The notes below the pieces were generated by a model, which made no database searches, had not been told where the DNA came from, and worked only from the letters and a program-made list of their open reading frames with translations. Positions 16,721 to 50,796 of a DNA stretch of 64,000 nt are shown in pieces. The first letter of the stretch is position 1. The number at the start of each line of letters is the position of its first letter. This DNA comes from Methanolobus sp. (lineage in GTDB: Archaea; Halobacteriota; Methanosarcinia; Methanosarcinales; Methanosarcinaceae), in contig NZ_JADQBY010000014.1 of NCBI RefSeq assembly GCF_016278385.1, positions 62,001 to 126,000 of the forward strand, written 5' to 3'. The position numbers and the translations under genes are program-made.

Positions 16721-17590
16721 CTATCTTTCACTTGCGGCATGTGATGCAATGAATTCCCTGAGCAGTTTCGTTCCAAGCAGTGCGCTCATCCCGTTGTCGT
16801 ATTCAGGAGCGATTTCAACAACATCAAAACCAACGGATACAGGTGCAAATGAACGAATTACCTCACGTACCTCAATGTCAGTAAGTCCGAATGGTTCGGG
16901 GGTCCCAAGGCCAGGTGCATATGCAGGATCAAGAGCATCCATATCCAGGGAAAGATATATCTTTTTACACCCGAGATATTCCTTAACCTCTGAAATGACC
17001 TGTTTGATACCCATTTCTCGTACATCATCTGAAGTATAGTATTTGATGCCATTCTCTTTTGCATAGACCCATTCTTCCTTTGGGCCGCTGCGGACTCCTA
17101 TGGTCACATAGGTATCAGTGATATCGTCCAGTATGTGTCTTGAAACGCATGCGTGGTTGTTCCTGATGCCTCCGTATTCTTCCCGAAGGTCAAAGTGTGC
17201 ATCCATTACAACAAAACCGATATTCTCTCCTGCTTCCTCTGCACATGCTTTTACACATGGGTAAGTAAGGGAATGCTCGCCACCAAGCATAATAGGGATT
17301 TTTCTATCCTTTGCAATTGGTTTCACAGCGAGGTAAAGCTCTTCGAGTGTCTCATCAACAGATGAATAAGGCTCAAGGTTTCCTGCATCATGGATAAACA
17401 GGTCCTCAAAATCAATATCAAAATAATCATTATAGGTTTCAAAGTTCGCAGAGGCTTTCCTCATGGCATCCGGGGCCCAGCGACTTCCTGATCTGTATGA
17501 AGAAGTAGCATCAAAAGGGACACCGAATATCACATACCTTGCAGAATCATAATCTGCCATGGCATCCATCATATCGGGTTTGTAAAACAT
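16721..17590 (-). CDS. speB: Agmatinase
   Basis: 289 residues of the ureohydrolase family. Binuclear Mn ligands are visible in GGEHSLTYP, VMDAHFDLR and SLDMDALDPAYAPGLGTPEP. The family converts agmatine to putrescine and urea, feeding spermidine synthesis. It lies 43 bases downstream of the aIF5A gene on the same strand. aIF5A carries deoxyhypusine or hypusine built from spermidine, and this gene pair is common in archaea, so co-transcription links polyamine supply to the factor that needs it. Arginase is less likely given the motif spacing and the context. Confidence 0.93.
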   Translation of the reverse strand: MFYKPDMMDAMADYDSARYVIFGVPFDATSSYRSGSRWAPDAMRKASANFETYNDYFDIDFEDLFIHDAGNLEPYSSVDETLEELYLAVKPIAKDRKIPIMLGGEHSLTYPCVKACAEEAGENIGFVVMDAHFDLREEYGGIRNNHACVSRHILDDITDTYVTIGVRSGPKEEWVYAKENGIKYYTSDDVREMGIKQVISEVKEYLGCKKIYLSLDMDALDPAYAPGLGTPEPFGLTDIEVREVIRSFAPVSVGFDVVEIAPEYDNGMSALLGTKLLREFIASHAASER

Positions 17591-39297: not shown

Positions 39298-40335
39298 ATG
39301 TCTCTGGAAAATTATAGTGTCTTAAAAGGGAAAATCAAGGACTGCAAATGTGGGAAAGGCAAGTATGATCATTATCAGATACTTGTTCATGATGGAAAAA
39401 ATGAGCATCGCATTGCTGTTAATGTCAGTTCAAAGGTCTCTCCTTCTGATCTGCTGTATTTTGTTGATGATAATTTTAGTCACCCAATGACTGAAAAGCT
39501 TGAAAAGCTTGAAATGGGGCACAAAAGACTTGATGATACTAGAAGGGATATACGCCTTGATTATATTCGTGGCGGCCTTTTTGATGCTTCAAAGATGGTA
39601 CCTTTAAAGTGCGATGTCCCCGGTCCTTTAAATGACCTTAATGACCTCATACAGAAATATGTGAAGCAAGCTATTCGAATGAGCAGCAGCATGATATATG
39701 CTTTTGGTGAAAGATGGGGTCCGGAATCATTCCTGCCGGACAGCTTTTTTGGTTTCAGACCTGGCAGCGGTATTCATGATGTCCATATGAATCAGGGTAA
39801 TTCCAAGAAGTGGCAAGGTGACGATGCTCCTAATCAGGATGGTGGCTTGCTAATTCATTTGCCGGAAGAGAACAGGTGGGTAGCTATTTTCCTGGCATTC
39901 CAGTCCCAATGTTTCGATACAGATGATCTAACTGGTCATTGCCTGTCGAATGCACACAGGATTGTCTCAGAACCTTGCTATGAAATTGAGCAAATCCCGG
40001 AAAAGACGGTTTTAGGGGGTTCCGTGAAAATAGTCGGAGCACTTGTCGATCCAATAGGTGTTGATGCGGGCAAAGAAGCAGTTACCATTTTCAATGCTTC
40101 TCCGAATGAAATTGATCTTGATGGCTGGTTTATTCAGGACGGACATGGGAGAAAATCCTTGCTTAAAGGTGATATTACTGCAGGTTCTGGTACACGCGTA
40201 CTGCTTTCTGGGAAAGGTGTAATACTTTCCAATAATGGAGGCCAGATCAGTCTTTACGATAATAAGGGTGCATTGATGCATGAGGTAAAATATACTAGCA
40301 GGGAAGTCAGATCAGGCTGGACCCTTGTCTTCTGA
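39298..40335 (+). CDS. DUF2278 protein with C-terminal lamin-tail domain
   Basis: 345 residues. DUF2278 covers about 1-230: YSVLKGKIKDCKCGKGKYDHYQI, VNVSSKVSPSDLLYFVDDNF, RLDYIRGGLFD and IHDVHMNQGNS. The C-terminal 110 residues are a lamin-tail-like beta domain (EIDLDGWFIQDGHGRKSLLKG). Family members are predicted secreted or cell-surface-related; activity is unknown. A damaged copy of its second half lies at 43384-43941, after the first large surface gene. That puts it in a duplicated block with the surface proteins. Confidence 0.85.
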   Translation: MSLENYSVLKGKIKDCKCGKGKYDHYQILVHDGKNEHRIAVNVSSKVSPSDLLYFVDDNFSHPMTEKLEKLEMGHKRLDDTRRDIRLDYIRGGLFDASKMVPLKCDVPGPLNDLNDLIQKYVKQAIRMSSSMIYAFGERWGPESFLPDSFFGFRPGSGIHDVHMNQGNSKKWQGDDAPNQDGGLLIHLPEENRWVAIFLAFQSQCFDTDDLTGHCLSNAHRIVSEPCYEIEQIPEKTVLGGSVKIVGALVDPIGVDAGKEAVTIFNASPNEIDLDGWFIQDGHGRKSLLKGDITAGSGTRVLLSGKGVILSNNGGQISLYDNKGALMHEVKYTSREVRSGWTLVF

Positions 40336-40518: not shown

Positions 40519-40591
40519 TCATTTTACATTCCTAAAAGAAATCTAATCTGTCATATGTTGGGTATATTTGATGGCAGAGGTGGCACACAAT

Positions 40592-43177
40592 ATGAAAACG
40601 TTGGATATAGGCGCGCAAGCTATTATTTCTTATATTGGAAAGTTGACATTTTCAGCAAAGTTACTATGCATATTTACAATTTTACTTCTTCTAATGAGTA
40701 GCATTGCATCTGCAGATGATACTATTATAACTGTGGATGATGATGGCGCAGCAGATAATATAAGTCAGGTTCTTACTGCAAAAATTAACTATATTTCTCC
40801 TCATGATTTTCCTCAAGGTACCAAGGTAAGATTTTCAGGGACAGGCAATGCATCATATGGTGAAATTGTTGGATATAAATGGACCTCCTGTCGTAACGGG
40901 GTATTGAGTTCGTCTGACAGCTTTAGCTTAAATACTTCGAATCTTAAAATTGGTGGACATACTATCTCTTTCAGTGTCAAGGGTGACCAGGGAGAATGGT
41001 CAGAAGTAGCCATTGGATATATTCACGTTCTTGTAGCCCCGTCTGCGACCATCACTTCAATTAGTCCTAATCCTGCTACAGAAGGAACAGAAGTAACATT
41101 TGTAGGAAATGCAATAGACCAGGATGGAACGATAAAGGCATACAGCTGGAAAATTGATGGAAATCAAATCAGCAACCAAGCAACGTTCACGAATTCAGAT
41201 ATTTCAGTAGGAGATCATACGGTAGCATTCAGTGCAATGGACAATAACAGCCTATGGTCAGAAGAAGTAACAAAAACACTTAAAATTACTGAAGTTCAAA
41301 ATATAGCACCAGTAACAAACATTGTATCAATTAGTCCTAATCCTGCGACAGAAGGTACGGAAGTAACATTTACAGGAAATGCAACAGACCAGGATGGAAC
41401 AATTGCAGCATACCTATGGACAGTAGATGGAAACACGGTAAGCACAAACGAAACTTTCACGAATTCAGATATTCCAATCGGAGAACATACGGTAGTATTC
41501 AGTGCAATGGACAATGACAATGAATGGTCAGAAGAAGTGAACACAATTCTGACAGTTACCGAAACTCCAAATATTAAACCAGTAACACACATTGTATCAA
41601 TTAGTCCTAATCCTGCATATGAAGGTACGGAAGTAACATTTACAGGAAATGCAACAGACCAGGATGGAACAATTGCAGCATACCTATGGACAGTAGATGG
41701 AAACACGGTAAGCACAAACGAAACTTTCACGAATTCAGATATTCCAATCGGAGAACATACGGTAGTATTCAGTGCAATGGACAATGACAATGAATGGTCA
41801 GAAGAAGTGAACACAATTCTGGCAGTTACCGAAACTCCAAATATTAAACCAGTAACAAACATTGTATCAATTAGTCCAAATCCTGCCACAGAAGGTACGG
41901 AAGTAACATTTTCAGGAAGTGGAAATGATACAGATGGTACAATTGCAGCTTATAACTGGACATCCAGCATTGATGGTAACCTTAGTAACTCTGCAAGTTT
42001 CAGTACCGCAGATCTCACAGTAGGTACTCACACCATTTACTTCAGTGTCTGTGACAATAATGGAGAATGGTCTTCTAAAGTATCCAAATCCCTGACCGTC
42101 AACAAAGCTCCGGTCCAGAAAGGTGACGATTCAGCATCTGCTGTGTTTGTAAGTGTAAGTCCTGCAAGTGGTTCCACACTTGCTGCAGGTACAAGTTCTG
42201 CCAATATCATTTTCAACTACAATGATACTGAAACTGGAGTTAATACTGATTCCGTGGTATTCATATTCGATTATGTTGACGTAACTGATGATGACAATGT
42301 AACCATTACAAGCACCTCTGCTCAGTACAATGCAATCGGTCTTTCTGCAGGAAGTCATATTGCATCTGTGTACGTTGTGGATACTGCAGGTAATTCAGCT
42401 ACATTCTACACAAACTTCACGATAGCTGAAAAGAGCAGTTCCATTTCCTCATCCGGTTCTTCTTCCAGCTCTTCCTCCTCCGGTGGCGGGGGCGGTAGTG
42501 GAGGCGGCACAACTGGAGAGAAGTACGAGAATGTTCTTGTAAAAGAAGTGGAAAGCATATTTGTCATTAAAGGCTCGCATGTCAGTTACGAGTTTACTGA
42601 TGAGGGCAATGCTATTTCCTCAGTCCAGTTTGATTCCCTGAAGAACTCCGGATCGATACAGACGATTATTGAAGTAGTGAAAGACAGATCATCGTTCGCA
42701 AAAACCGATGCTCCTGGGCAAGTCTATCAGCAGATGAATATCTGGGTAGGCAAGTCTGGATTTGTAAGACCGGAAAATGTTGAGGACCTGCTTATTACCT
42801 TCAAGGTTGAGAAATCCTGGCTGACAGAGAACAACATCGAAGCTGACACAGTAATGCTGTATAAGTATGCAGACAGTTCCTGGAATAAACTATCAACCAC
42901 TGTTACCGGAGAAGACGATGAGTACGTGTACTTTGAGAGTGAAACTCCTGGTTTTTCACCATTTGCAATAGCATCTGAAAGCGAATCTGAGTCTGCTGGA
43001 GATGATACATTGCAATCTGTGGTTGATGATATTGCAGGTTCTGTTGCAGCAGAAGAACAGGTGTCTGAAGTAGAAACAACATCCAATGGCTTTAGCACTA
43101 CAGGTATTTTGCTTATACTGGGACTTCTTGTAGCAGTTCTTGTAGGCGGATATATTCTGTACGGGAAACGAAACTAA
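40592..43177 (+). CDS. Surface protein A: PKD repeats, PGF-pre-PGF domain
   Basis: About 861 residues from ATG 40592, chosen because it matches gene B, where GAGGGGG precedes the ATG and the upstream ATG is out of frame; here GAGGTGG does the same. Signal peptide ends SSIASA. Then comes TVDDDGAAD, the start of a NosD-type helix, but no helix follows. Five PKD-like domains, the third and fourth 98% identical DNA copies, then an extra beta domain, a Ser/Gly linker and the PGF-pre-PGF domain (SIQTIIEVVKDRSSFAKTD). The C-terminus has one membrane helix and GKRN. Likely a cell-envelope adhesin or S-layer-associated protein. Confidence 0.88.
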   Translation: MKTLDIGAQAIISYIGKLTFSAKLLCIFTILLLLMSSIASADDTIITVDDDGAADNISQVLTAKINYISPHDFPQGTKVRFSGTGNASYGEIVGYKWTSCRNGVLSSSDSFSLNTSNLKIGGHTISFSVKGDQGEWSEVAIGYIHVLVAPSATITSISPNPATEGTEVTFVGNAIDQDGTIKAYSWKIDGNQISNQATFTNSDISVGDHTVAFSAMDNNSLWSEEVTKTLKITEVQNIAPVTNIVSISPNPATEGTEVTFTGNATDQDGTIAAYLWTVDGNTVSTNETFTNSDIPIGEHTVVFSAMDNDNEWSEEVNTILTVTETPNIKPVTHIVSISPNPAYEGTEVTFTGNATDQDGTIAAYLWTVDGNTVSTNETFTNSDIPIGEHTVVFSAMDNDNEWSEEVNTILAVTETPNIKPVTNIVSISPNPATEGTEVTFSGSGNDTDGTIAAYNWTSSIDGNLSNSASFSTADLTVGTHTIYFSVCDNNGEWSSKVSKSLTVNKAPVQKGDDSASAVFVSVSPASGSTLAAGTSSANIIFNYNDTETGVNTDSVVFIFDYVDVTDDDNVTITSTSAQYNAIGLSAGSHIASVYVVDTAGNSATFYTNFTIAEKSSSISSSGSSSSSSSSGGGGGSGGGTTGEKYENVLVKEVESIFVIKGSHVSYEFTDEGNAISSVQFDSLKNSGSIQTIIEVVKDRSSFAKTDAPGQVYQQMNIWVGKSGFVRPENVEDLLITFKVEKSWLTENNIEADTVMLYKYADSSWNKLSTTVTGEDDEYVYFESETPGFSPFAIASESESESAGDDTLQSVVDDIAGSVAAEEQVSEVETTSNGFSTTGILLILGLLVAVLVGGYILYGKRN
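41321..41860 (+). repeat. Two 270-base tandem repeats encoding PKD domains
   Basis: Copies 41321-41590 and 41591-41860 differ at six positions by eye (about 98% identical). A third, diverged unit follows at 41861. Each encodes one 90-residue PKD domain starting IVSISPNPA. Confidence 0.85.
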
Positions 43178-43189: not shown

Positions 43190-43383
43190 ATTTCTCTTTT
43201 GATTAGATTTTTGTTTCACTTTGAATTATTTCTATCCCAAGTTTGACAGTCAAAAGTAATAAATGTGTTCTTTATTTTGTTGTATTCGACCAAGAATGCA
43301 GACAAAAATAAGAACATATGACACTATTCCAAATGACAATATATGCTTTCTTATCGGGACCATTCTGGCTGTAAATGAACTTT

Positions 43384-43941
43384 ATGATGTCCATATGAAT
43401 CAGGGCAATTCTAAGAAGGCAAGGTGACGATGCTCCTAATCAGGATGGTGGCTTGCTAATTCATTTGCCGGAAGAGAACAGATGGGTAGCTATTTGCCTG
43501 GCATTCCAGTCCCAATGTTTCGATACCGATGATCTAACTGGTCATTGCCTGCCGAATGCACACTGGATTGTCTTAGAACCTTGCAATGAAATTGAGCAAA
43601 TCCCGTAAAATGCGGTTTTAGCGGGTTCCGTGAAAATAGTCGGAGCACTTATCAATTCAATAGGTGTTGATGTGGGCAAAGAAGCAGTAACCCTGTTCAA
43701 TGCTTCTCCGAATGATATTGATCTTGATGGCTGGTTTATTTAGGATGGACCTGGAAGTAAATCTTTGCTCAAAGGTGATATTACTGCAGGCTCTGGTACA
43801 CGTGTACTGCTTTCCGGGAAAGGTGTAATACTTTCCAATAATGGAGGCCAGATCAGTCTTTACGATAATAAGGGTGCATTGATGCATGAGGTAAAATATA
43901 CTAGCAGGGAAGTCAGATCAGGCTGGACCCTTGTCTTCTGA
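43384..43941 (+). pseudogene. Truncated, decayed copy of DUF2278/lamin-tail gene
   Basis: Matches 39776-40335 (second half of the intact gene). It has lost two bases in AAGAAGTGGCAAGG (now AAGAAGGCAAGG), and has a stop at CCG TAA and another where the intact gene reads TTT ATT CAG (here TAG). The last 126 bases, ending at TGA 43941, are identical to the intact gene by eye. The first half is absent. So it is a dead 3' fragment from duplication, with the very end possibly kept identical by gene conversion. Confidence 0.9.
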
Positions 43942-44140: not shown

Positions 44141-44150
44141 GTTTATATAG
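44141..44150 (+). promoter_or_regulatory. TATA box of surface gene B
   Basis: GTTTATATAG, ending 74 bases before ATG 44224. Followed by the leader shared with gene A. Confidence 0.55.
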
Positions 44151-44223
44151 TTTTTTTTACATTGTATTCGTTATTCAATTCTGTCATAAATAGGGTAAAG
44201 GGTATGGCAGAGGGGGTACACAC

Positions 44224-47200
44224 ATGAAAGCTTTAAAGAAAGGGTTGAGATTAGTTAATACTACTAACAAGAAATATAATTTAAACACCAAATTATACCT
44301 TATTGGTATAATTTTTGCTTTTCTTCTACTAATGAGCAACGTCGTATCGGCAACTTCTCTTGAAGTGGATAGTATTGTGCAGTTGACTACTAACGATGGA
44401 GATGAACAGAATCCTGTCTGGTCACCTGATGGCACTGAAATTGCATATTCCAGGGATGGCAATATTTACAAGATGTCTTTGGCAGATTCAAGTGAGGTTA
44501 CGCTAACAGATGATTCTTACAGAAAAAGCGGCTATAGCTGGTCACCTGATGGTACTCAAATGATTTTTCAAAAACAGAACGACAGCAGCATTTATAGTCT
44601 TTGGCTAATGAACGAGGACGGTTCTTCACAAAGACAAATACCTAATACAAATGGTGAAATAGATTCTTTTGCATGGTCTCCGGATGGATCAAAAATTGCT
44701 TATACACAAGGTATTGAGTTGACATTAATAGAGCCTGATGGTTCAAATAAACAGGTAATCTATACAAATCAACCAGAATATCCTGGCGATAATAGCGAAT
44801 GGGCAGCGGCTCTTTATGATGTAGCATGGTCACCTGATTCATCTAAAATAGTGGTTGAGGAATCAATAGGTGTGGAGGGTGTAGTTCTTCTTAAGGTACT
44901 AAACACAGATGGTACGAATCCAATATATATAACTGATGCTTTGCCAATAAATGACCATAACACCATTACCCCGCAGACTCAATCCTGGCAAAGTCAGGTA
45001 TGGTCGCCTGACGGCTCAAAGATCGTTTTTGAAACTTACAATTTCCATGAAGGTCTAGCCTCCCAAGCATCAACTGTAGATTTAGATGGAACCGATGCAA
45101 TTATACTTACTGAACAAGGTGCCTCCTACCCATCATTCTCTCCGGATGGAAGCAAAATCGTCTATGAATATTATGATTTTGGCAAGGATGCAAACGATGT
45201 GTGGATGATGGATTCTGATGGAAGTAATAAAACCCGGCTAACAACAAACTTTACAGGTGACCACCGTCCTGTATGGAGTCCCGATGGAAGTAAAATAGCT
45301 TTTATGTCTGCAAGTGCAGGTAACCGGGACATATGGGTAATGACACTGAAAGAAGTATCAGGAAATAACAATGTGATTACTGTTGATGATGATGGTGGGG
45401 AAGACTACAATACAATACAAGATGCCATTGATGCTGCCAAACATGGTGACACTATCCTTGTGTCTCCGGGTACATATTATGAAAATGTCAATGTTTATAA
45501 ATCGGTTATTATTGAATCAACTAATGGTGTTGAGGTGACAAACGTAATTGGTACCTCAGAGTATTATCCTGTATTCTATGTTTCAGCATATAAATCTACT
45601 ATCAAGGGATTCAGTATAAGTCCTAGCGGTGAGAGTTATTCTAATGGTATACATATTTTAGAGTCTGATTATAACACGATTACTGAAAATAAAATAACAT
45701 CAGACAAAGGTAGCGGTATCTACTTGGAATCATCAGAACACAATACAATAAAGAATAATAAAGTATCTGGTGACTCATTTGCTGCTATTTGGGTGGTTGG
45801 TAATGAAAACACAGTCATAAATAACAATGCATCCGCAACTGTTCATGGTACATATATCAGTGGCAATAATAATTTACTGAGTAATAATAATGCAGAAGGA
45901 ATGGAATCTAGTGTTTATGTACGCGGAGACGATAATACTCTGGACTACAATACAATCTATTCACATAATATTGGGATAGACGAGAGTGGTAACAATAACA
46001 ATATTGTTAACAACATCATATCAAACTATGACAGCGGACTAGGTGTACTAGTATTCTCATCCAGCGGAAGTATACTTTCCAATAATACCATCGAAGGAGG
46101 TTCTATAGGAGTTTCTGTATACGAATCTGAAAATATCACCTTAGATAGCAATTCATTAAGTACAGCTGGTTACGGTGTAATTCTATCTGATGCCAGCAAC
46201 AACTTGATCTACAACAATTTCTTCAACACCGTAGTAAATGTTGAATTTGAAGGTACAAACACCGGTAATCAGTGGAATATCGAAAGGACCGCTGGCAATA
46301 ACATCATGGGCGGTTCGTATCTTGCCGGCAACTACTGGGCAAAACCAGATGGAACCGGATTCAGTCAGAATGCTGTTGATACGGACGGTGATGGTATCAG
46401 TGAATCATCCTATGAACTGGATGCTGACAACATCGACTACCTTCCACTGACAGACAATGTAGTTCTAAATCAGCAACCTACTGCAACAATTGCTTCTATT
46501 TTCCCGATCTCCGCAACAGAAGGAGAATCTGTTTCTTTTGCAGGAAATGGTACTGATATCGATGGTACAATTACTGGATATAAGTGGGTGTCTAGCCGTG
46601 ATGGTGACCTGAGTGCTTCTGCAAGCTTTAGTACTACTGGTCTTTCAGTCGGAACTCACACCGTTTCCTTCAGTGTTCAGGACAATAATGGAGCATGGTC
46701 AGCTGTAGTATCATCATCCCTGAATGTCAGTGAAGCTCCGGTCCAGACAGGTAACGATTCAGCACCTGTACTTGTAAGTGTCAGCCCCACAAGCGGTTCA
46801 ACACTTGCTGCAGGTACAAGTTCTGTAAACATTAATTTCAGCTACAGTGATAATGAAACAGGTATTGATACGAGCTCTGTTGTATTCATATTCAACTATG
46901 TTGATGTAACTGCTAATGGCAATACAACAATAGCAAATACATCTGCTCAGTACAATGCAACTGGTCTTTCCGGAGGTAGCTATAATGCATCTGTGTATGT
47001 TGTGGATACTGCAGGCAATTCAGCTACATTCAACACAAATTTCACGATAGCTGAAAAGAGCAGTTCATCATCCAGTTCTACTTCTAGGTCTTCCTCTTCA
47101 TCCTCCGGTGGCGGTGGTGGCGGTACTACTGGTGAAGCATATGCAAATATTGCTGTAAAAGAAGTGGAAAGCATTTTTGTCATTAAAGATTCGCATTTCA

Positions 47201-47790
47201 GTTACGAGTTTACTGATGAGGGCAATGCTATTTCCTCCGTTGAGTTCGATTCCCTGAAGAACTCTGGATCGATACAGACCATAATTGAAGTTGTGAAAGA
47301 CCGTTCATCGTTTGCAAAAACTGATGTTCCAGGGCAAGTCTATCAGCAGATGAACATTTGGGTAGGAAAGACTGGTTTTGTAAGACCGGAAAATGTTGAA
47401 AATCTGCTCATAACTTTCAAAGTAGAGAAATCCTGGCTAACCGAGAATAATATTGAAACAGATACGGTAATGCTGTACAGGTATGCAGATAGTTCCTGGG
47501 ATAAACTATCAACAACTGTAACCGGAGAAGACGATGAGTACGTGTACTTCGAGAGTGAGACTCCTGGTTTTTCACCATTTGCAATAACATCTGAAAGTGA
47601 ATCAGTATCTGCTGAAGAAGATATATTGCAATCTGTGGCTGATGATACGGCAGATTCTGTTTCAAAAGATCTTGTTTCGGATAACGAAACAAAATCGACC
47701 GGTTTCAGTGTCACAGGTATTCTGCTTGTGCTGGGACTTCTTGCAGCAGTTCTTGTAGGTGGATATGTTCAGTATGGGAAACGAAACTAA
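44224..47790 (+). CDS. Surface protein B: TolB-like propeller, NosD beta-helix, PKD, PGF-pre-PGF
   Basis: 1188 residues. Signal sequence to about 44 (NVVSATSLEVD). Then seven TolB/PD40-like blades, each with a W/F-SPDG or SPDS motif (about 60-375). A NosD-type right-handed beta-helix follows (about 385-745), starting TVDDDGGEDYNTIQDAIDAA and full of NN/NT ladder repeats. Then one PKD domain, a beta domain shared with A and C, a Ser/Gly linker, PGF-pre-PGF (about 970-1130), and a C-terminal helix with GKRN. Predicted extracellular; the modules suggest polymer binding or a structural envelope role. Start follows GAGGGGG. Confidence 0.9.
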   Translation: MKALKKGLRLVNTTNKKYNLNTKLYLIGIIFAFLLLMSNVVSATSLEVDSIVQLTTNDGDEQNPVWSPDGTEIAYSRDGNIYKMSLADSSEVTLTDDSYRKSGYSWSPDGTQMIFQKQNDSSIYSLWLMNEDGSSQRQIPNTNGEIDSFAWSPDGSKIAYTQGIELTLIEPDGSNKQVIYTNQPEYPGDNSEWAAALYDVAWSPDSSKIVVEESIGVEGVVLLKVLNTDGTNPIYITDALPINDHNTITPQTQSWQSQVWSPDGSKIVFETYNFHEGLASQASTVDLDGTDAIILTEQGASYPSFSPDGSKIVYEYYDFGKDANDVWMMDSDGSNKTRLTTNFTGDHRPVWSPDGSKIAFMSASAGNRDIWVMTLKEVSGNNNVITVDDDGGEDYNTIQDAIDAAKHGDTILVSPGTYYENVNVYKSVIIESTNGVEVTNVIGTSEYYPVFYVSAYKSTIKGFSISPSGESYSNGIHILESDYNTITENKITSDKGSGIYLESSEHNTIKNNKVSGDSFAAIWVVGNENTVINNNASATVHGTYISGNNNLLSNNNAEGMESSVYVRGDDNTLDYNTIYSHNIGIDESGNNNNIVNNIISNYDSGLGVLVFSSSGSILSNNTIEGGSIGVSVYESENITLDSNSLSTAGYGVILSDASNNLIYNNFFNTVVNVEFEGTNTGNQWNIERTAGNNIMGGSYLAGNYWAKPDGTGFSQNAVDTDGDGISESSYELDADNIDYLPLTDNVVLNQQPTATIASIFPISATEGESVSFAGNGTDIDGTITGYKWVSSRDGDLSASASFSTTGLSVGTHTVSFSVQDNNGAWSAVVSSSLNVSEAPVQTGNDSAPVLVSVSPTSGSTLAAGTSSVNINFSYSDNETGIDTSSVVFIFNYVDVTANGNTTIANTSAQYNATGLSGGSYNASVYVVDTAGNSATFNTNFTIAEKSSSSSSSTSRSSSSSSGGGGGGTTGEAYANIAVKEVESIFVIKDSHFSYEFTDEGNAISSVEFDSLKNSGSIQTIIEVVKDRSSFAKTDVPGQVYQQMNIWVGKTGFVRPENVENLLITFKVEKSWLTENNIETDTVMLYRYADSSWDKLSTTVTGEDDEYVYFESETPGFSPFAITSESESVSAEEDILQSVADDTADSVSKDLVSDNETKSTGFSVTGILLVLGLLAAVLVGGYVQYGKRN

Positions 47791-47810: not shown

Positions 47811-47920
47811 ATTTTGATCTATGGTTCAGATATATAAAATAATGAACATAATTCAATAATACGCCCGCAGAATTAATTATTTGGTATGTCCTATATTAAA
47901 GTTTTAATTTATCTGCATAG

Positions 47921-47930
47921 ATATAAATAG
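47921..47930 (+). promoter_or_regulatory. TATA box of surface gene C
   Basis: ATATAAATAG. Ends 71 bases before ATT 48001, close to the 74 bases between TATA and ATG in genes A and B. Confidence 0.55.
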
Positions 47931-47976: not shown

Positions 47977-50796
47977 ATGATACGATTGGGCGGTGGTACG
48001 ATTAAAGCGTCAAAAAAAGATATCCGATTAGCTAGCTCTGCTGCTAGTAGTATAGTCCATAGCATATTTTCTTTCAATTCGAAATATTGGAAAACAATAG
48101 GTTTGGCAGCTATTTTTCTGTTGCTTGTAGGTACTTGTGTGTGTAGCGCCGCAGTGGTAACAGTAGATGATAGTGGTAGTGCAGATTACACTACAATCCA
48201 GGCTGCAGTTGATGGTGCCATTTCAGGAGATACCATCCAGGTATCCCCGGGAACCTACAATGAGAATATTAACGTTAACAAACAAGTATCTATCATTTCT
48301 ACAGATGGTGCTTCTGATACTAGCGTCATTGCTGCATCAGGATATGATCATGTATTTAATGTAACTGCTGCTGGTGTAACTATAAATGGTTTCAGTATTA
48401 GCGGTGCTATTAATGTTGATATGGCAGGTATCTATCTAAGTTCAAACAATAATATCCTGATTAACAACGAAGTTTCTGAAAACTGGCACGGTATCTATTT
48501 GGATTCTTCCAACGATAACGAGGTGAATAGCAACACAGGATCAAACAATATTTATTGTAGTATCTATCTTTCTTCTTCCAGCAACAACAACCTGGGCACT
48601 AACCTGATAGATAATACTGATTACAGTGATTACGGTATTCTGTTGGATTATTCTGACAGTAACACCCTGGTTGAAAACTCAGCTACTCGTTTGGTTCGTA
48701 AGGACATTATCCGTTTGGAACATTCCAATTATAATACGTTAATCAATAATGAAGTAGGGGTTTCTGATGAGGGGAGCGGTATCTATCTTACAGATTCCAG
48801 CAATAATCGATTTACAGGTAATACTGTGATCAATAATTTTAATTCTGGTATCTTTCTTTCTTCTTCTGATAACAACGAGCTGATTGGCAACACCATATTG
48901 AATAACCTTGCATCAGGTCTCTCTTTTTCATCTTCCAGCAACAATCGGATCTACAACAATAATTTCACAAACGATGTCAATGTTGTCCTTGATGGGGATA
49001 ATACAGGTAATTCATGGAACATTGAAAAGACTGCAGGTAAGAATATACTAGGTGGATCTAACCTTGGTGGAAATTACTGGGCACAACCAGATGGAAAAGG
49101 CTTTAGCCAGACAGAAGTTGATGCAAATGGAGATGGTATCTGTGATTCTACTTTCATTCTGGGTGAAAGTAATATTGACAATCTTCCTCTGACCACTAAT
49201 GTAGCTTCAAACCAGGCACCTACAGCCAATATACCATCAATATCCCCAAATCCGACAACTGAAGGTATATCTGTTTCTTTTGCAGGAAGCGGAACTGACT
49301 CTGATGGTACCATTGCTGGTTATAAATGGTCCTCCAGTCTTGATAGTGATCTAAGTACTTCTGCAAGTTTCAGTAGTTCTGAACTTTCCGTAGGCACACA
49401 CACTATCTCCTTCAGTGTTCAGGATAATGATGGTGATTGGTCTGATGTTGTTTCCTCAACCTTGACTATCAATGAAGCTCCTAATCAGAATCCTGTTGCC
49501 CGCATCGGTTCTATTTCTCCCAACCCTGCAACCAAAGGTACTTCTGTTTCTTTTGCAGGAAGCGGAACTGACTCTGATGGCACCATTGCTGGTTATAAAT
49601 GGTCCTCCAGTCTTGATAGTGATCTAAGTACTTCTGCAAGTTTCAGTAGTTCTGAACTTTCCGTAGGCACACACACTATCTCCTTCAGTGTTCAGGATAA
49701 CGCTGGTGATTGGTCTGATGTTGTTTCCTCAACTCTGACAATCAATGCGGCTTCGGAACAGAATGATACTGATTCTACAGGTCCTGTCCTTACAAGTGTG
49801 ACTCCGTCAAGCGGGTCTACCTTTGCTGCAGGCACAACATCTACCGAGATCCGGTTCGACTACAATGATGCCCAGAATGGTATCAACACGAGTTCAATTG
49901 TTTTCACTTTTGACAGTGTTGATGTTACAGATGATGGTAATGCAACAATAACAGATTCATACGCATTCTACAATGCCAATGGACTAGCTGCAGGAAGCCA
50001 TTCTGCATCAGTGCGTGTTGCAGACAATGAAGGCAATTCAGTGGTTTTCAGTACGAGTTTCACAATCAGTGCGCAGAGCAGTTCAAGTTCCTCATCCAGT
50101 TCCTCGTCCTCAGGCGGTGGTGGAGGCGGCACTACCGGAGAGAAGTACGAGAATCTTCTTGTAAAAGACGTGGAAAGTATTTTCGTCATTAAGGATTCGC
50201 ACGTCAGCTACGAGTTCAATGATAAGAGCAATGCTATTTCCTCCGTTGAGTTCGATTCCCTGAAGAACTCCGGATCGATACAGACCATCATTGAAGTCGT
50301 GAAAGACCGTTCATCGTTTGCAAAAACTGATGCTCCAGGACAAGTCTATCAGCAGATGAATATTTGGGTAGGAAAGGCTGGTTTTGTAAGACCGGAAAAC
50401 ATTGAAAATCTGCTTATTACTTTCAAAGTCGAGAAATCCTGGCTGACAGAGAATAACATTGAAGCTGATACGGTGATTCTTTACAGGTATGCAGATGATA
50501 CGTGGAATAAACTCCCCACCACTGTTACTGAGGAAGTTGATAATTACGTGTACTATGAAAGTGAGACATCAGGCTTTTCTCCATTTGCAATAGCATCTGA
50601 AAGTAAGCCTGAACCTATTGTTGAAGAAGAACTGAAGTCTGTAACAGATGAAAGCGCAGCAGCAATAGCAAGCGAAGAGCTTTCAGAAGAGGAACCGAAT
50701 CCTAAAGGAATCAGCACCACTGGTATTTTTGTAATGCTGGGAATATTCTCAGTAGTTCTTATTGGTGCATATGCTCTCTACGGGAAACGAAGTTAA
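47977..50796 (+). CDS. Surface protein C: NosD beta-helix, two PKD, PGF-pre-PGF; possible ATT start
   Basis: 939 residues if ATG 47977 is used. The signal segment ends VCSAAVV. A NosD-type beta-helix (about 60-400) begins TVDDSGSADYTTIQAAVDGA. Two PKD domains with 273-base DNA period follow, then the shared beta domain, a Ser/Gly linker and PGF-pre-PGF (about 725-880), C-terminal helix and GKRS. The ATG has no ribosome site. In B the protein starts MKALKKGLRL; here the aligned codons are ATT AAA GCG at 48001, right after GGGCGGTGG. So the ancestral start has become ATT. It may now start at ATT, or upstream. Confidence 0.88.
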   Translation: MIRLGGGTIKASKKDIRLASSAASSIVHSIFSFNSKYWKTIGLAAIFLLLVGTCVCSAAVVTVDDSGSADYTTIQAAVDGAISGDTIQVSPGTYNENINVNKQVSIISTDGASDTSVIAASGYDHVFNVTAAGVTINGFSISGAINVDMAGIYLSSNNNILINNEVSENWHGIYLDSSNDNEVNSNTGSNNIYCSIYLSSSSNNNLGTNLIDNTDYSDYGILLDYSDSNTLVENSATRLVRKDIIRLEHSNYNTLINNEVGVSDEGSGIYLTDSSNNRFTGNTVINNFNSGIFLSSSDNNELIGNTILNNLASGLSFSSSSNNRIYNNNFTNDVNVVLDGDNTGNSWNIEKTAGKNILGGSNLGGNYWAQPDGKGFSQTEVDANGDGICDSTFILGESNIDNLPLTTNVASNQAPTANIPSISPNPTTEGISVSFAGSGTDSDGTIAGYKWSSSLDSDLSTSASFSSSELSVGTHTISFSVQDNDGDWSDVVSSTLTINEAPNQNPVARIGSISPNPATKGTSVSFAGSGTDSDGTIAGYKWSSSLDSDLSTSASFSSSELSVGTHTISFSVQDNAGDWSDVVSSTLTINAASEQNDTDSTGPVLTSVTPSSGSTFAAGTTSTEIRFDYNDAQNGINTSSIVFTFDSVDVTDDGNATITDSYAFYNANGLAAGSHSASVRVADNEGNSVVFSTSFTISAQSSSSSSSSSSSSGGGGGGTTGEKYENLLVKDVESIFVIKDSHVSYEFNDKSNAISSVEFDSLKNSGSIQTIIEVVKDRSSFAKTDAPGQVYQQMNIWVGKAGFVRPENIENLLITFKVEKSWLTENNIEADTVILYRYADDTWNKLPTTVTEEVDNYVYYESETSGFSPFAIASESKPEPIVEEELKSVTDESAAAIASEELSEEEPNPKGISTTGIFVMLGIFSVVLIGAYALYGKRS
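49271..49735 (+). repeat. Two tandem PKD-encoding repeats in gene C
   Basis: The segment from CTGTTTCTTTTGCAGG at 49271 recurs at 49544, a 273-base period (91 residues). The core of about 190 bases in each copy is nearly identical; the linkers differ. Confidence 0.75.

Follow-up and report, generated by a model that had tools for sequence, protein, structure and literature searches.

We analysed a 64,000-nucleotide stretch of the genome of a Methanolobus species (the window) and found that gene C, one of three tandem surface-protein genes in it, probably starts translation at an ATT codon; we put the probability that this codon is the working start at roughly three in four. Four things support this reading: the homologous position of the codon, the strength of the Shine-Dalgarno (SD) sequence in front of it, a paralogue (C45) that lacks an alternative start, and more ATT cases elsewhere in the genus. 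On the mechanism we propose, the SD-like sequence GGGCGGTGGTAC would place the small ribosomal subunit (30S) at ATT, the initiator tRNA (Met-tRNAi) would accept AUU as a near-cognate start, and the protein would begin Met-Lys-Ala-Ser-Lys-Lys. As judged from the sequence, initiation at this codon and insertion of methionine there are most likely. C45 probably also starts at its ATT.

The window lies in a 2.88-Mb draft assembly of 52 contigs; its genes and its relatives indicate a Methanosarcinaceae methanogen. Genes A, B and C all carry a PGF-pre-PGF domain, and their C-terminal portions are 71-85% alike. Gene C comprises a signal peptide, NosD/beta-helix, PKD and PGF-pre-PGF domains and a C-terminal membrane helix. 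For PGF-pre-PGF (TIGR04213, curated cut-off 28) gene C scored 183.6 bits and C45 189.6 bits. An N-terminal signal peptide and a C-terminal membrane helix were recognised by hydrophobicity only, with the hydrophobic cores LAAIFLLLVGTCVC and ISTTGIFVMLGIFSVVLIGAYALYGKR. The predicted product is an exported surface protein anchored at its C terminus. Between A and B, the gene at 39298-40335 recurs as a partial and decayed copy (window positions 43320-43941), which points to tandem duplication of this block.

Table 1. Features of genes A, B and C (window coordinates).
Feature	Position	Strand	Remarks
ATT, proposed start codon of gene C	48001..48003	+	then AAA GCG
Gene C, counted from ATT	48001..50796	+	931 codons and stop
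Signal peptide region of gene C, IKASKKDIRL...TIGLAAIFLLLVGTCVCSAA	48001..48153	+	
SD-like leader of gene C, GGGCGGTGGTAC	47988..47999	+	GGTGGTAC at 47992-47999
TATA-like box of gene C, GATATAAATA	47920..47929	+	about 80 nt 5' of ATT
In-frame ATG of gene C (ORF-caller start)	47977..47979	+	without SD; out of frame in paralogue C45
In-frame TTG of gene C	47986..47988	+	without SD; C45 has ATA there
Gene A, PKD and PGF-pre-PGF surface protein	40592..43177	+	ATG AAA start at 40592
SD-like leader of gene A, GAGGTGG	40577..40583	+	-11.8 kcal/mol
Gene B, PGF-pre-PGF surface protein	44224..47790	+	ATG start
SD-like leader of gene B, GAGGGGGTAC	44210..44219	+	-10.6 kcal/mol
TATA-like box of gene B, TTTATATA	44142..44149	+	

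An earlier note had described ATT AAA GCG behind a ribosome-like site, and this can be read directly from the sequence, where GGGCGGTGGTACG lies upstream. The same note counted 74 bases (A and B) or 71 bases (C) from the TATA element to the ribosome site; this agrees with our spacing from the TATA-like element to the start codon, which is 82 nt in A and B, 80 nt in C, 77 nt in C45 and 81 nt in C24, a close copy of B that we found on contig C24 by searching with the B leader. At the start position of this shared TATA/SD/start layout, A, B and C24 carry ATG; C and C45 carry ATT. The homologous place reads ATGAAA in another relative, C15, so that ATT occupies the start position of the relatives. 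The N-termini aligned in the earlier note, MKALKKGLRL (B) and IKASKKDIRL (C), are identical at 6 of 10 residues. Just 5' of the SD, CTGTCA could pair with TGGCAG in A (window 40547-40583), B (44180-44216) and C24; in the B leader this pairing had no statistical support when folding was compared with shuffles.

Gene C keeps canonical in-frame codons 5' of ATT, namely an ATG 24 nt upstream and a TTG, the latter overlooked in the earlier note. We computed the duplex energy of the 22 nt preceding each start codon with the anti-SD sequence GGATCACCTCCT, taken from the 16S of a genome of the same genus (G004); the 16S gene is absent from this assembly. The ATT of gene C gave -12.1 kcal/mol, on a par with the starts of A (-11.8) and B (-10.6); this value is matched by 0.55% of random sites in the same genome. 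The ATG gave -4.6 kcal/mol (42% of random sites equal or better), in keeping with the earlier remark that the annotated start has no ribosome site of its own, and the TTG gave -2.3 kcal/mol (83% equal or better). Thus a ribosome-binding site lies at a workable distance from ATT and from neither rival codon. The ATT of C45 scored moderately, at -9.1 kcal/mol (5.8% of random sites equal or better). The gene C leader RNA folds a hairpin over the SD; leader structure was no better than that of shuffles in C (z = -0.73), C45 (z = 0.18) or B (z = -1.0).

Gene C could instead start at the ATG or the TTG without an SD and yield a product beginning MIRLGGGTIKASKK, in which case ATT would be an ordinary isoleucine codon. 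Both lie within the open reading frame of C, and the GxGTIK region is kept between C and C45 at the protein as well as the DNA level. A 2020 review of archaeal initiation, in the passages cited here, allows starts on AUG, GUG or UUG with a leader of any size (PMC7531240). However, an upstream start would put the SD-like GGGCGGTGGTAC within the coding region and would add 8 residues that are absent from A, B, C24 and C15, and neither codon has an SD. The TTG is further disfavoured because C45 has ATA in its place. A start at either codon in C alone would also leave C45 unexplained, and we regard this alternative as unlikely.

C45 lies on a separate contig (contig C45, L021), where ATT at 2378 opens a frame of 1,461 codons that ends in a complete PGF-pre-PGF domain and C-terminal helix. 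Its first 300 residues share 51% amino-acid identity with those of C. The leader and start regions read AATTAATGACACTATAGGGTGTGGTACA then ATTAAATATCC in C45 and AATTAATGATACGATTGGGCGGTGGTACG then ATTAAAGCG in C. Between ATT and an upstream ATG common to both genes lies a 1-nt indel, which throws the ATG of C45 out of frame; there it closes after three codons (ATG ACA CTA TAG). Between the upstream stop and the core of the signal peptide, C45 contains no in-frame ATG, GTG or TTG. The first in-frame canonical codon is a TTG within the hydrophobic core.

Downstream of ATT the indels that separate C from C45 come in multiples of three; upstream of it the indel is 1 nt. Differences at first, second and third codon positions number 14/11/37 (72 codons) and 52/42/111 (212 codons) in the later domains; the N-terminal stretch has a weaker third-position bias, 17/13/20 (52 codons). 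The third-position bias and the frame-keeping indels argue for purifying selection on both proteins. Since C45 has the same ATT and leader, and both frames are intact despite deep divergence, ATT appears to be old and either tolerated or selected. On this comparison ATT is an old state common to the C/C45 pair and no fresh lesion of C. The earlier proposal that gene C had lost its ATG to ATT is therefore well supported as regards a probable ATT start, given its position, SD and counterpart in C45, but not as regards a lesion of C alone. When we searched other species for DNA relatives of the C leader only C45 and C15 matched, and the C/C45 leader type occurs in only one species. The best protein homologues elsewhere (L002 and L003, from other species) have a different signal peptide and start with ATG.

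The same comparison bears on two further explanations. C and C45 may have lost their start codon and be untranslated, or nearly so, either as decaying genes or as silent recombination stores for A and B. A, B, C24 and C15 have ATG, and C-terminal parts as alike as those of A, B and C would permit exchange. However, the intact frames, the third-position-biased differences and the complete anchor domains speak against decay, a promoter and SD are still present in both genes, and the common ATT implies long persistence. We consider this explanation improbable. The other explanation is an assembly or sequencing error, with base 48003 truly a G. ATT differs from ATG by a single base and the assembly is a draft, but the homologous ATT lies on a separate contig in C45 and there is an independent ATT case in another species (G024, below). 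We therefore rejected an error as scarcely credible, and we retain AUU initiation as the preferred reading of gene C.

We determined how often long reading frames lack a canonical start using 513 kb of this genome, a sample with 229 ORFs of 250 or more codons that deliberately included C45. Only 7 of the 229 had no canonical start among their first 35 codons. In four a plausible ATG follows later in the frame; the others are an ORF masked by N, an ORF downstream of an in-frame TAA, and C45. The ORF behind the TAA, a PAS-domain ORF in L124, at first appeared startless and was set aside as an ordinary frame. It lies on the minus strand of L124, at about position 17510 of the reverse complement (G000:C23:160001-180000), and the in-frame TAA splits this PAS-domain-like frame. 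Coding sequence is present on both sides of the TAA; a pseudogene, read-through or a base error are possible.

We also surveyed 60 PGF-pre-PGF genes of related species at their 5' ends. The sequence GGTGGTACN often stands directly 5' of the start codon, which is ATG in L198, GTG in L186, L194, L204 and L207, and TTG in L177. In the same register C has GGTGGTACG and C45 has TGTGGTACA, each followed by ATT. GGTGGTACN recurs just 5' of the starts of signal-peptide genes in L198, L238, L239, L243, L253, L272, L280, L297 and others, some of which were found by the DNA pattern alone. In this genus the leader GGTGGTACN may be a hallmark of one class of exported proteins.

Across 27 genomes GGTGGTACNATT showed no genome-wide excess, with 53 sites versus 71 for the reversed pattern. 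This suggests that ATT usage is rare. Among 35 sites inspected, 6 head an ORF, versus about 0.2 predicted by the rate at which ATT in general does so (P ~1e-7). At three of the six, ATG is the next codon, so those three are evidence only for the leader being a genuine ribosome site. The remaining three are gene C, one gene in G017 and one in G024. The ATT in G017 (L249/L298) is only a possible start, since a TTG occupies codon 3 of the frame; we found no homologues of this gene within the genus. A G001 gene (L257) is likewise only a possible case, with ATG four codons upstream.

The G024 gene is unrelated to C (ATT at 972289 of G024:C1, minus strand; L279, L299). Its start region reads GGTGGTACT then ATT TAT AAA AAC and leads into a typical signal peptide, IYKNISFKLFVVLTLLCAQFYPATAAA, and at least 1,430 open codons. 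The first canonical codon falls inside the hydrophobic core, with none before it.

A family of orthologous surface genes with TTGAGTGGTGGTA in nine species provides a comparison for ATA. Three of the nine have a canonical start just 3' of TTGAGTGGTGGTA (ATG in G021 and G015, GTG in G023). The other six have ATA (L226 in G006, L227 in G013, L229 in G040, L230 in G011, L231 in G014 and L236 in G008), and in these we found no ATG or GTG after the SD-like GAGTGGTGGTA. The ATA is invariant in the register of GGTGGTANN and start, while the codons on either side vary. The motif opens with an in-frame TTG that lacks an SD (-4.0 to -5.6, versus -8.2 at ATA); in the three orthologues with canonical starts this TTG falls outside the reading frame. 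This pattern is suggestive of ATA as a start, and a start at the in-frame TTG is possible.

Gene callers, too, apply the AUG/GUG/UUG rule, and to our knowledge an ATT start has rarely been proposed in archaea and none has been proven. The review of archaeal initiation, in its passages cited here, names AUG, GUG and UUG only as start codons (PMC7531240), and Ribo-seq of small ORFs in M. mazei gave ATG, TTG, GTG and some CTG starts (PMC11456600). The aIF1 of Sulfolobus solfataricus selects against non-canonical starts (PMC8211752, PMC6237735), which we counted against an AUU start. PGF-pre-PGF surface proteins (TIGR04213) of the Methanosarcinales share with gene C the domain, the NosD/beta-helix, the PKD and the C-terminal helix; these relatives normally start at ATG, GTG or TTG.

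Several known systems resemble gene C in part. Escherichia coli infC has an ATT start behind an SD and near-cognate initiation by the initiator tRNA; however, it depends on the bacterial factor IF3 and its autoregulated product is the fidelity factor itself, whereas gene C encodes an archaeal surface protein whose control by aIF1 is our conjecture. In Streptomyces coelicolor, sigR starts at GTC, a start repressed by IF3 that annotation had shifted to a canonical codon upstream (PMC5472188). It resembles the reading proposed for gene C in having a conserved non-canonical start annotated at a nearby upstream canonical codon, with low expression expected. It differs in its codon, its bacterial machinery, its experimental proof and its role as a regulatory gene. 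The tubulin gene atubA of a Kariarchaeaceae (Asgard) archaeon has an ATT start that was likewise inferred from the aligned N-terminus and a plausible ribosome-binding site and is unproven in the native host (PMC13394414); that case concerns a single cytoskeletal gene, with neither a paralogue nor a genus-wide comparison.

Since aIF1 discriminates against non-canonical starts in archaea, we infer that translation of gene C from AUU would be weak and sensitive to this fidelity factor. Such a start would hold C and C45 at low or conditional levels. A broader reading, which we offer tentatively and hold to be possible rather than probable, is that the genus leader GGTGGTANN serves exported-protein genes whose start may be ATG, GTG, TTG, ATT or ATA, and that the ATT and ATA members (C, C45, the G024 gene and the six-species ATA family) would make up a group of archaeal starts that are weak by design and set surface-protein dosage through start-codon fidelity.

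A comparative AUU case, supported by a paralogue lacking any other start, offers a simple way to test by experiment how tightly aIF1 and aIF2 of archaea control the choice of start codon. If the reading is true, the annotated N-termini of several surface proteins would change.
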